DNA of 36,976 nt, taken from the NCBI GenBank assembly GCA_947623815.1, contig CANQHO010000091.1, positions 1-36,976 on the forward strand, in the 5' to 3' direction. Shown here piece by piece: positions 759 to 26,799 of the stretch. The stretch comes from an uncultured Bacilli bacterium. GTDB lineage: Bacteria > Bacillota_I > Bacilli_A > RF39 > UBA660. Made by a program: the position numbers and the translations under genes. Within the stretch, counting starts at the first letter, position 1; the number at the start of each line of letters is the position of its first letter. Below the pieces are notes generated by a model. The model was not told the origin of the DNA. It saw only the letters and a list, made by a program, of their open reading frames with translations, and made no database searches.

Positions 759-1178
759 ATGAATAACTATAAACCAGCACTAGATTATTATAATTATAAA
801 AACAACAACTTCAATCAACCAACTTTTACCAAAAATGAAAATCCTAGTGCAATATATGATCCTTATCAAGGATTTATTCGTGGAAATATGTTTCCCGACT
901 TATACAACTCTTACAAAACTAATCAACCTTACGCTTTAAAAGAAGACGCTTTTACTTATATGGATGCCTTTGCTTTTGCTGCTCATGATATTAACTTATA
1001 CTTAGATATCTATCCAAATGACAAAGATATGATTGCTGCTTTTAGTGAATACACACTTCAAGCTGACAAACTTATGGAAGAATATCAAAGTAAATATGGT
1101 CCATTAGTTGTTAGTAGCAAAACAAATATGGTATACCCTTGGGCTTGGGATATGGAACCATGGCCATGGGAAAATTAA
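759..1178 (+). CDS. cotJB: Spore coat protein: CotJA-CotJB fusion
   Basis: This is a component of the CotJ spore coat complex, which in Bacillus is deposited in the inner coat during sporulation. Residues 64-139 match CotJB throughout: an acidic helical core (INLYLDIYPND near 78-88), then KYGPL and the aromatic tail with PWAW and PWPW. Residues about 30-53 (YDPYQGFIRGNMFPDLYNSY) match the short CotJA motif, in which RG-x-hydrophobic-FP-x-L is the conserved core. In Bacillus, CotJA and CotJB are separate proteins of roughly 80-90 residues each; here both signatures sit in one 139-residue chain. The start follows GGGAGG. The cotJC gene begins 12 bases after the stop codon. A sporulation sigma factor probably drives the operon, but I could not assign its promoter. 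Confidence 0.88.
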   Translation: MNNYKPALDYYNYKNNNFNQPTFTKNENPSAIYDPYQGFIRGNMFPDLYNSYKTNQPYALKEDAFTYMDAFAFAAHDINLYLDIYPNDKDMIAAFSEYTLQADKLMEEYQSKYGPLVVSSKTNMVYPWAWDMEPWPWEN

Positions 1179-7027: not shown

Positions 7028-8302
7028 TTATGATTTTTTTAATATTTTAGCTGTTACTACTGTTCCAGTTAAAGCCAGACCTAATAACAATACTAATGTT
7101 AAAATATTATCTCCAGTTGCCGGATTTTTATCAGCTTTATTTGTTTCTGGTTTAGCTGGAGTTTCAGGATTAGTTGGTGTATCAGGGTTAGTTGTTGGAT
7201 CTGTAATTGTTGGTTCGTTTGGATCAACAACTTTATCTCCTTCAATTTCCAATCCTTCACCTAAGTAAGCATCTATATTTTCTACTTTTCCTTCTAATGT
7301 AGTTCCCTTTTCAATAAAGGCTTTTTGAACTTCATTAAATTTGTCAGATGCAGTTATTATTTCTTTATCATCAGCTGATACTAAAGTTGCATTCCCTTTA
7401 ACAGCAATATCATTTACTGATGATTTAGTAGTTTCACCAGCTAAATATTCTTCAATTGCTGAATTATTAGTACTTGAAACTTTTCCACCATCGATATTGA
7501 CATCAACATTTCCTGCATAATTTTTATTTGATTCTATTTGGATACCTGCTCCAGTTGGAACAAATCCATTTCCAGAAGCTTCAGATGATGCTAGTTGTCC
7601 AGTTCCTGATACTGTAGCACCAGTTACATTTAAAGCACCAGCTTTAGTTACAACACCACTAGCTCCAGTTACTTTAGCTCCACTTTTCAAGTTAATAGTA
7701 GATGCACCTGCTTGGTATATACCAGCATCAATACCTGTTAATTCCCCAGATACATTGATAACTGCATCTCCTTCTTTTAACTTACCATGAACAGTTATAG
7801 CAGATGTTTCAATACCATTTTGTTTTTTTGTTACATTGATTTTACCATCAACATTAACAACAACACCAAAAGTTTTTCCACTATTATCTGTTGATACTAC
7901 AATTCCGCCAATACCTTCAAGAGTTAAAGATTTGTCTAAAGTTAAATTAACTTTATTAGATCCTTCTTTGCTATCTGAACCGTATACATAAATAATAGCA
8001 CCATCACTATTACCATTTTCATTGATAATTTTACCATTTTTAATTACAACTGTACCGTTTTTTACATTAAATACTCTATTAGCATTACTAGTAATAGTTT
8101 TACCACCTAAATCGATAGTAACATCGTGAGTAATTTCTATTACTTGATCTAAATCATCAATATTAGCAGTTAATTTAATATCTCCACCCTTTTCAACTTC
8201 TGTTTTTAAATCACCTTTATTAGCTACATCTGTAGCATATACTTTAGGCATAATAACTAATCCACAAACAAATGCGATTAAAGGCATAACGATTTTTTTC
8301 AT
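7028..8302 (-). CDS. Secreted, sortase-anchored surface protein (NPATG signal)
   Basis: A wall-anchored surface protein of unknown binding function. Residues 1-23 are a signal peptide ending VYA, with cleavage before TDVA. Residues about 30-340 are short repeating strands of the type VxVNVDGKINV and INLKSGAKVTGASG, with Asn/Gly turns, as in right-handed beta-helix or pectate-lyase-like proteins. A Pro/Thr/Asn-rich stalk follows (about 362-392). The C-terminus is a complete sorting signal: NPATG (393-397), a hydrophobic segment (400-418) and the positive tail KILKKS. NPxTG suits a class B-type sortase such as the one encoded divergently 240 bases away; (S/P)PxTG substrates are known for Clostridioides difficile SrtB. 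The start has GGAGGTGG. The promoter lies within a set of dyads. Confidence 0.88.
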   Translation of the reverse strand: MKKIVMPLIAFVCGLVIMPKVYATDVANKGDLKTEVEKGGDIKLTANIDDLDQVIEITHDVTIDLGGKTITSNANRVFNVKNGTVVIKNGKIINENGNSDGAIIYVYGSDSKEGSNKVNLTLDKSLTLEGIGGIVVSTDNSGKTFGVVVNVDGKINVTKKQNGIETSAITVHGKLKEGDAVINVSGELTGIDAGIYQAGASTINLKSGAKVTGASGVVTKAGALNVTGATVSGTGQLASSEASGNGFVPTGAGIQIESNKNYAGNVDVNIDGGKVSSTNNSAIEEYLAGETTKSSVNDIAVKGNATLVSADDKEIITASDKFNEVQKAFIEKGTTLEGKVENIDAYLGEGLEIEGDKVVDPNEPTITDPTTNPDTPTNPETPAKPETNKADKNPATGDNILTLVLLLGLALTGTVVTAKILKKS

Positions 8303-8334
8303 TTCATTCCACCTCCTCTCTGTTTCATAAATGA

Positions 8335-8357
8335 TTTATTATGTGTAACATAATAAA
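8335..8357. repeat. Perfect inverted repeat, leader of surface-protein gene
   Basis: TTTATTATGT and ACATAATAAA are perfect complements, separated by GTA. It lies in the transcribed leader between the promoter and ribosome site, so it could be an RNA hairpin or an operator. Confidence 0.6.
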
Positions 8358-8373
8358 TTCAGTATATACTGAA
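8358..8373. repeat. 16-base perfect palindrome TTCAGTATATACTGAA
   Basis: A spacerless palindrome directly adjoining the previous dyad. It is about 20 bases downstream of the predicted start of transcription, a normal operator position. Confidence 0.6.
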
Positions 8374-8387
8374 CACAGTGCTCTAAT

Positions 8388-8407
8388 ATATACTAACATT
8401 AGTATAT
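8388..8407. promoter_or_regulatory. Dyad operator overlapping the -10 box
   Basis: ATATACTAA and TTAGTATAT are perfect 9-base arms with a 2-base spacer. One arm contains the minus-strand -10 box TATACT. A protein bound here would block RNA polymerase. The regulator is not identified in the window. Confidence 0.55.
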
Positions 8408-8428
8408 CAAATTTTAATTTTTAGTCAA
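8401..8428 (-). promoter_or_regulatory. Promoter of the surface-protein gene
   Basis: Minus strand TTGACT (8423-8428), a 16-base spacer and TATACT (8401-8406). The leader would be about 90 bases and holds two of the three dyads. Confidence 0.65.
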
Positions 8429-8542
8429 TCGATTTTCTTATTTTTTATTTTTGATTTACATCTAAACAAAAAATAATTTTTTAATCTCTAAGTAGTACTA
8501 TTTTTTTTTATTTTTTTATTGTAAAATATAATTGGTGATACT

Positions 8543-9367
8543 ATGGAAAAATTAGAAAAGAGCATCATAATTATTAAAAAAATTCTTTATTTTATTTTAA
8601 TGATTATGTTTATCATATTACTAATTGTTTCTATTATTCATATAATTGATTGGAATAAAGATAATAAAGATATTGAAAAGCAAATAAACGATATTGAAAA
8701 TAAAATTGACGTCAAAGAAATTGAAGATAAAAAGGCTGAAAAAGTAAATCCTGAAAAAGATAAAAATAGTTTATATTTTAAATTTATTAAAATGCCTCTT
8801 ATTGAAGTAGATTTTACCAATTTATTAAAGCAAAACAAAGATACTGTTGGTTGGTTACAAGTAAAGGGAACGAATGTAAATTACCCATTTGTACAAGGAA
8901 AAGATAATGATTATTATTTAAAACATTCTTTTAATAAAACTAAAAATGACGCTGGTTGGGTATTTATGGATTATCGAAATAATAAAAATGATTGGGACCA
9001 AAATACTATTATTTATGCTCATAGTAGACTTGACACTTCAATGTTTGGTACTTTAAAAAACATTTTTAAAAGTGATTGGTTAAAAAATAGAGATAATCAT
9101 ATTATTAGAATTTCTACAGAAAAAGAAAATACTATGTGGCAAGTATTTAGTGTTTATAAAATTAAAACAACTACTGATTATTTAACTACTAGTTTTAGTA
9201 CCCAAAAAGAATATCAAAATTTCTTAAATATGATAGAAAAAAGAAGTACTTTTGATTTTAAGGCTAATGTTACAACTGATGATAAAATTATTACATTATC
9301 TACTTGTTATAATGATACAACTAAAACTGTTATGCATGCGAAATTGATATTAAGAAAAAAAAGATGA
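8543..9367 (+). CDS. srtB: Class B sortase with Arg-to-Lys active-site change
   Basis: A membrane-anchored cysteine transpeptidase expected to cut the NPATG signal of the neighbouring surface protein and attach it to the cell wall. Residues 1-12 are cytosolic, 13-37 a membrane helix, 40-75 a charged probable coiled coil, and 90-271 the sortase domain. Motifs: GWLQVKGTNVNYP, then NTIIYAHS with catalytic His160, DTSMFGTLKN, and TLSTC with Cys255. Lining up the C-terminus with S. aureus SrtB (ETTKRIVVVAKII, catalytic Arg233) puts Lys261 at the Arg position. The rest of the fold and its length (274) are normal. The start has GGTGAT 3 bases upstream. It is transcribed alone and ends at a bidirectional terminator. 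Confidence 0.9.
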   Translation: MEKLEKSIIIIKKILYFILMIMFIILLIVSIIHIIDWNKDNKDIEKQINDIENKIDVKEIEDKKAEKVNPEKDKNSLYFKFIKMPLIEVDFTNLLKQNKDTVGWLQVKGTNVNYPFVQGKDNDYYLKHSFNKTKNDAGWVFMDYRNNKNDWDQNTIIYAHSRLDTSMFGTLKNIFKSDWLKNRDNHIIRISTEKENTMWQVFSVYKIKTTTDYLTTSFSTQKEYQNFLNMIEKRSTFDFKANVTTDDKIITLSTCYNDTTKTVMHAKLILRKKR

Positions 9368-22867: not shown

Positions 22868-23314
22868 CTACCCTTTAAAAGGGTTTTTATATTCTTTTTT
22901 CATCATTTTATCTTCTAGTTGATCTTCTTTTTCCTGTTCTCTTATGTATTTCTTTATCGTTGCTTCATTTAATCCTACTGTACTTACATAATATCCTGTT
23001 GCCCAAAAATTTCTGTTCCCTAACTTATATTTTAAGTTGGCATGTCTTTCAAATAACATCATTGTACTTTTCCCTTTTAGGTATCCCATAAAATTTGATA
23101 CACTTATTTTTGGTGGTATTTCCAATAGTAAATGTACATGATCTGGCATTAAGTTTCCTTCTATTATTTTCACACCTTTATATTGACATAATCTTCCTAT
23201 TATTTCTGCCAAATCCTTTCTTAATTTATGATATATCATTTTTCTTCTATATTTAGGTATAAATACTATGTGATATTTGCACTTCCATTTTGTATGTGTT
23301 AAACTATTAGCTAT
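22868..23314 (-). CDS. tnpA: IS200 family Y1 transposase TnpA, start codon reads ATA
   Basis: A single-strand HUH transposase. The HUH motif is in PDHVHLLLEI and the catalytic Tyr in EATIKKYIREQ; PPKISVSNFMGYLKGKS and FWATGYYVSTVGLN are family landmarks. The first ATG gives only 123 residues and begins inside the first domain. The same frame extends upstream through conserved N-terminal sequence (ANSLTHTKWKCKYHIVF, then PKYRRK) to codon 23312-23314, where the related proteins have ATG but the sequence here is ATA. That codon has GGAAGTGG at proper spacing, giving 148 residues, the family length. No in-frame ATG, GTG or TTG lies between it and the next upstream stop. Expression is therefore doubtful. 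Confidence 0.85.
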   Translation of the reverse strand: MANSLTHTKWKCKYHIVFIPKYRRKMIYHKLRKDLAEIIGRLCQYKGVKIIEGNLMPDHVHLLLEIPPKISVSNFMGYLKGKSTMMLFERHANLKYKLGNRNFWATGYYVSTVGLNEATIKKYIREQEKEDQLEDKMMKKEYKNPFKG

Positions 23315-26268: not shown

Positions 26269-26799
26269 TTATTCTTCCAAATACTTCATAAAAAACTCGG
26301 CTGCTATATTAGCCACTTTTTCTTCAACTTCTGATAATCTATTTATTTGTGAAAAAATAATAACAAAACCCATCATATCGCCCCGGACAAAAATTGGTTT
26401 TAATATATAAGTACATTCAATTTTTTTATTAGACACAATTTCTAATATTTTTTTATGTTTTTCTAATATATTTTCATGTCTTTTTATCGATGTTAACATA
26501 GCATCACTTAAATATTGATTTAAAAATTCTTTTTTATAAGGACCACTAGCAGCAATAACACTATCAGTATCAGTAATAATGATATTTTCTTTTAAAAATG
26601 AATAAATTGAATCCGTAAAATACTGGGCAAAATCACTTATTCTTTTAACTAAAGAATATTTTTTTAAAATAAGTTGATCTCCCTGTACAAAAATTTCAAC
26701 ATTTTCTCCTTCTAAAAGTCTCATAGATTTTCTTATTTCTTTAGGAATAACTAATCTACCTAATTCATCAATGCGTCTAATCATTCCTGTCGTCTTCAT
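26269..26799 (-). CDS. spoVT: Stage V sporulation regulator SpoVT
   Basis: An AbrB-type transcription factor acting in the forespore under sigma-G control in Bacillus. Residues 1-50 are the swapped-hairpin AbrB domain (TTGMIRRIDELGRLVIPKEIR, then ENVEIFVQGDQLILKKY). Residues about 55-176 are the GAF-like domain. At 176 residues it matches the two-domain SpoVT length, whereas AbrB lacks the GAF half. AAGGAGG precedes the ATG. It follows mfd on the same strand, as in Bacillus. Its presence is a strong sign that the organism forms spores. Confidence 0.94.
   Translation of the reverse strand: MKTTGMIRRIDELGRLVIPKEIRKSMRLLEGENVEIFVQGDQLILKKYSLVKRISDFAQYFTDSIYSFLKENIIITDTDSVIAASGPYKKEFLNQYLSDAMLTSIKRHENILEKHKKILEIVSNKKIECTYILKPIFVRGDMMGFVIIFSQINRLSEVEEKVANIAAEFFMKYLEE

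Follow-up and report, generated by a model that had tools for sequence, protein, structure and literature searches.

The locus raises the question of whether CotJA and CotJB, two small spore-coat proteins encoded by separate genes in Bacillus, are joined here in a single chain. In the window, that is the whole stretch of 36,976 nucleotides that was analysed, the first-pass annotation had recognised both in one open reading frame next to cotJC. The starting point of that comparison agrees with B. subtilis, which keeps cotJA and cotJB as separate genes according to PMC8745062. The preferred reading, to which a probability of about 85% is assigned, is that cotJA and cotJB were fused long ago into this one gene, which forms a two-gene operon with cotJC.

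Layout of the gene and its operon

The fusion gene occupies positions 759-1178 of the + strand. It starts with ATG, encodes 139 amino acids without an internal stop and is preceded by a ribosome-binding-like GGGAGG (747-752, + strand), read from the sequence 7-12 nt 5' of the ATG. The C-terminal part, residues 65-138 (951-1172), matched the CotJB profile PF12652 at full length and well over the cut-off (profile positions 4-76 of 76, E 5.2e-21, 75 bits against 29), close to the limits of 64 and 139 given at first. It comprises a predicted helical hairpin and a Trp/Pro-rich tail. Ahead of this domain lie an Asn/Tyr-rich head, mostly predicted to be disordered from its composition and pLDDT (residues 1-29, 759-845), a CotJA-derived core (residues 30-52, 846-914) and a linker (residues 53-64, 915-950). 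A scan against NCBIfam assigned no coat family to the fusion protein. A weak second CotJB match in the source genome (G000:C7, E 0.017) was treated as chance.

The next gene on the + strand, at 1191-1760, is cotJC. It starts 12 nt 3' of the fusion gene, and its own ribosome-binding-like AAGGAGG (1177-1183) overlaps the fusion stop codon. The 189 aa product matched PF05067 with E 2.9e-55 and 187.7 bits (cut-off 27; profile positions 1-189 of 284), and by this match it is a putative manganese catalase. The two-gene operon proposed for this locus was thus borne out, and its layout is common to the related families described below.

Related genomes were surveyed for CotJB through a search of genome sets, since a contig scan with the single window protein had returned only four loci. 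From 135 CotJB loci gathered in this way, one (G263; E 2.5e-4, no adjoining cotJC, 11 bits with a profile built for this analysis) was dropped from all counts as chance, leaving 106 fused and 28 split loci. The gene cotJC follows directly in 105 of the 106 fused loci and in all 28 split ones. The sole fused locus without a detected cotJC directly downstream was L031 (G060, family f3). That two genes had been joined by an assembly or sequencing error, as a draft of 96 contigs might invite, is ruled out by the recurrence of the fused arrangement in 106 loci of 105 genomes.

Three other genes of the window may be mentioned. A further sporulation gene, presumably encoding a SpoVT-like protein, lies at 26269-26799 on the - strand, and what we take to be a small IS200-type (Y1) transposase-like protein is encoded at 22868-23239, also on the - strand. 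The product of 7028-9367, with a hydrophobic anchor at its end and beside a divergent gene that we assume to be sortase-like, looks secreted.

The CotJA-derived part of the protein

The CotJA profile PF11007 aligned to residues 30-52 with E 0.0032 and 17.7 bits; the first 62 residues alone gave E 0.00086 and 19.6 bits. The core had been correctly placed by the first-pass annotation at residues 39-52, but the Pfam match begins nine residues earlier, at 30, and the expected profile match of the N-terminal part was found at the right position without reaching the curated cut-off of 25 bits. Only the C-terminal two-thirds of the profile was matched. Positions 13-35 of 35 (RG[TN]xFxxLxxPY) are present, with GFxRGNxFxxLYxPYK as the core motif of the window protein, while the AYVPxQ half (profile 1-12) was not found there, the Pfam match starting at profile position 13. 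Because the single-protein match is sub-threshold, the segment is named CotJA-derived rather than a full CotJA, and homology was tested on the family instead.

For a standalone profile, only separate CotJA proteins were used, 29 in number and all encoded in the 28 split loci; the 7768 ORFs of the surveyed loci served as target. The window protein scored E 0.0016 (15.3 bits). Among all fused ORFs, 72 of 106 outranked the first unrelated, non-training ORF (domain E 0.34) and 76 of 106 the second, with a best score of E 5e-10 in family f16. Profile-profile comparison with hhalign gave 96.85% (E 2e-10) for the N-terminal parts of family f1 against standalone CotJA and 97.6% for those of the other families; the maximum among 50 column-shuffled f1 alignments was 3.6%. 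Pfam CotJA at E <= 0.05 was detected in 39 of 62 scanned fused members (best 3e-8), the other 23 giving no match at that threshold. A loose CotJA motif occurred in 106/106 fused ORFs versus 72/595 random stretches of other ORFs, and it stood 31-33 aa ahead of the CotJB hairpin in 91 of the 106 loci. The glycine of RGN, G42, was invariant in the alignment of fused proteins (62/62 rows; alignment A1, 62 of the 106 proteins). A script selected the start codons, and its choice looks wrong in a few loci outside this alignment (L022, L036, L072, L134).

These results bear on the suspicion that the resemblance to CotJA is accidental and the N-terminal part a low-complexity coat tail of other descent, as the sub-threshold Pfam score of the window protein, its Asn/Tyr-rich head and the 34 of 106 fused ORFs that are individually inseparable from background with the standalone profile would allow. 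Such a coincidence is very improbable and, at the level of sequence, largely refuted, given the ranking of the fused ORFs, the hhalign values with their shuffled controls, the correct operon position and the eight fused loci that exceed the Pfam CotJA cut-off (G014, G072, G152, G223, G229, G241, G248 and G262). Judged by these family comparisons, both parts of the fusion are homologous to separate CotJA and CotJB proteins, and the joining of the two in one protein, as first read from the single sequence, is supported for its CotJA half.

An intact cotJA elsewhere in the genome would have spoken against the reading as a fusion, and the annotation had called for such a search. In the source genome (a draft of 1.36 Mb in 96 contigs, 94.6% complete), a profile search at E <= 10 matched only the fused ORF, so that no separate cotJA was found in this assembly. 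When relatives were searched in this way, their separate CotJA proteins reached 23-62 bits, and such a copy would probably have been visible if assembled. In the samples of 98 and 395 genomes, every CotJA match over the cut-off fell within a fused ORF or within a split operon. The five weak matches at other places (E 0.026-0.045) were short and were taken as chance.

Most separate CotJA proteins show the pattern AYVPxQxW...ALxxGTxFxxLxxPY. In the fused proteins, the core is preceded by a head of variable length, with a median of 24% Asn and 11% Tyr in 58 f1 heads, whereas the remainder of the f1 proteins contains 10% and 7%, respectively; the head of the window protein has 28% Asn and 12.5% Tyr. 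With a loose pattern, an AYVxxQ- or INSQxF-like first half was recovered in the fused protein of G072 (f3) and in all 8 loci of f21. Among the others of the 106, the pattern picked out just three loci, of f1/f5, and these are doubtful. The survival of the first half in G072 and f21 suggests that the N-terminal half of CotJA was probably lost after the fusion, and the Asn/Tyr-rich head may be a disordered tail that replaces it.

The AlphaFold model of the fusion protein had a mean pLDDT of 77 and a pTM of 0.69. The CotJA core was predicted to be fairly ordered (block means of 89 and 81 for residues 31-50, and 73 for 51-60), the helices 64-84 and 89-113 were better ordered, and residues 1-4 and 8-22 fell below 50. 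A PDB structure search with the model gave no match at E <= 0.001, and a PDB sequence search with the protein none at E <= 1. The top structure rows, mostly ribosome chains (S15 where named) and some ferritins, were taken as chance helical hairpins. The near-fixed spacing between motif and hairpin suggests a structural link, in which the CotJA-derived core and the CotJB hairpin would form one unit, held at a nearly constant distance by the short linker.

Distribution and age of the fusion

A CotJB match was found in 58 of 98 relatives and in 120 of 395 genomes of the same class. The fused loci that were read belong to nine family groups of this class: f1 (64 loci in 63 genomes), f3 (2), f5 (11), f7 (1), f16 (8), f18 (5), f21 (8), f26 (1) and f13 (6 of 9). 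Split loci were found in f8 (8), f11 (7), f19 (10) and the remaining 3 of 9 in f13. The survey of relatives suggested by the first-pass annotation therefore revealed a widespread arrangement that is not peculiar to the window, and the fusion is kept across many genera. Four related records that carry names are uncultured Bacilli or Tenericutes of metagenomic origin, and the lineage would be an RF39-like order. In G027, two different fused genes were observed (L018, L044), each with an adjoining cotJC.

The label of fused or split was set per family (f8, f11, f19 and three f13 genomes as split) and then checked. The residues ahead of the hairpin number 47-144 in the fused ORFs and 8-37 in the split ones, save two f19 loci (186 and 213), and a separate CotJA was recovered in each of the 28 split loci. 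L066 and L067 were assigned to f1 by hand and not by the tool. The reading left aside G296 and the second match of G257, both with stops, and counted one of the two G102 operons. Another 24 CotJB-bearing genomes of the class (20 f1 and 4 f21) were left unread; their tabulated open frames of 120-219 aa (f1) and 125-146 aa (f21) correspond to the fused length. An N-terminal extension of CotJB of another kind was observed in L144 and L145 (G328 and G411; f19), where CotJB ends long frames of 286 and 259 aa with a very Cys-rich N-terminal part and a separate cotJA upstream.

Outside the class, the comparison comprised one Clostridia record (Monoglobus, annotated) and one Bacillales record (Paenibacillus, ORFs read by the author), both with separate cotJ genes. 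Together with B. subtilis, these suggest that the fused state is probably derived. A plasmid search returned two CotJB relatives, both split.

The trees include 15 of the 64 loci from f1 and exclude G060, in which no cotJC was detected, together with five loci outside f1 whose cotJC is truncated. On the CotJC tree, with 79 rows, there was one change between the fused and split states, with support of 84/59, and the CotJB tree likewise showed one. In the joint CotJB and CotJC tree the single change was supported by 99/98, L131 being flagged as a long branch. From this, the fusion is old and probably arose once.

Several independent fusions are considered unlikely in view of the single change on all three trees. 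In their favour, a small change could join the split genes, whose spacing is -11 to +23 nt in 26 of 29 rows (script-chosen starts), and family f13 contains both forms. In the tree, the fused and the split cotJ operons of this family (L099-L106 and L054) fall on opposite sides, a pattern expected from whole-operon transfer or from old paralogy, and this suggests one of the two as the source of the mixed state. PMC10868615 reports no sign of sporulation-gene transfer at internal nodes, which speaks against transfer in f13 and hence in favour of repeated fusion.

Synthesis of the two parts and possible role in the coat

From the fusion, the first-pass annotation had concluded a one-to-one assembly of CotJA and CotJB. 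In-frame ATG, GTG or TTG codons close to the junction are present in 89 of the 106 fused loci. With a loose pattern, a start with a ribosome-binding-like site ahead of the hairpin was found in 7/106 fused versus 22/28 split loci, so that separate translation of CotJB looks unlikely. CotJB is thus probably not additionally translated alone in the fused loci, and the two parts are probably synthesized one-to-one. The claim holds to this extent for synthesis; for assembly it goes beyond the sequence evidence, since proteolysis and coat stoichiometry cannot be read from it.

Coat proteins are often processed. This, and the in-frame codons near the junction, would be in line with a single chain that a spore protease later cleaves, or with an internal CotJB start, separate CotJA and CotJB still being what assembles; the scarcity of ribosome-binding-like sites relative to the split loci and the near-fixed spacing of motif and hairpin make this improbable. 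Under the preferred reading of an uncut fusion, joining the genes would provide equal amounts of both parts, connected from birth.

The fusion is a variant of a known system, not a new one. The cotJABC operon of Bacillus and clostridia (PF11007, PF12652 and PF05067) shares the three parts and their order, with cotJC directly behind, and its hosts likewise have sporulation genes. It differs from the operon described here, in which cotJA and cotJB are one gene and CotJA is reduced to profile positions 13-35, an Asn/Tyr-rich head replacing the remainder. The nearest separate relatives found, in the same class, are the split operons of f8, f11, f19 and part of f13. The C-terminus of f8 CotJA (e.g. 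GTIFKDLYRPYK) strongly resembles the fused core (GNMFPDLYNSYK), but the genes of these operons are separate and most of their CotJA proteins have the AYVPxQ half. Moorella thermoacetica has cotJB-cotJC, likewise without a separate CotJA; PMC8745062 reports that no CotJA was found in that species, whereas here the CotJA core persists inside the CotJB protein.

The source genome encodes SpoIVA (E 1e-109) and Spo0A (E 4e-40), which makes a coat role of the fusion plausible. In B. subtilis, CotJA and CotJC are mutually dependent for coat assembly. By analogy with the separate Bacillus proteins, the fusion may act as an adaptor that recruits CotJC, a catalase-like protein, to the coat. In the literature, the CotJA-CotJC dependence appears as a secondary statement in PMC5061772, and sporulation has been predicted for RF39 (PMC10868615). 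In C. difficile, CotD, which is homologous to CotJC, has catalase activity (PMC9542656), whereas according to PMC3533761 any such activity that CotJC may have does not seem important for building the coat. A bolder and doubtful proposal, offered tentatively, is that one ancient fusion would have given a large group of uncultured gut Bacilli with small genomes a coat component of their own: an adaptor of CotJA core and CotJB hairpin with fixed geometry, whose new disordered head would be a cross-linking arm (e.g. through its tyrosines) beside CotJC, in a two-gene operon replacing several lost inner-coat proteins.

No report of a cotJA-cotJB fusion was found in the open literature, as far as its accessible text goes; subscription papers or domain-architecture pages may record it. 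In PMC10868615, the single mention of cotJB concerns its absence from most of one family, and the word fusion does not occur.

The fusion would constitute natural Rosetta-stone evidence for a joint action of CotJA and CotJB, something that separate genes do not reveal. As a single chain, it is a target for structural work on a coat module to which no solved structure corresponds, and it could be useful as a lineage marker. Single-protein cut-offs would miss the CotJA part, as that of Pfam does here, and cotJA may be reported as lost where its core survives, and this bears on claims of sporulation gene loss in these bacteria.
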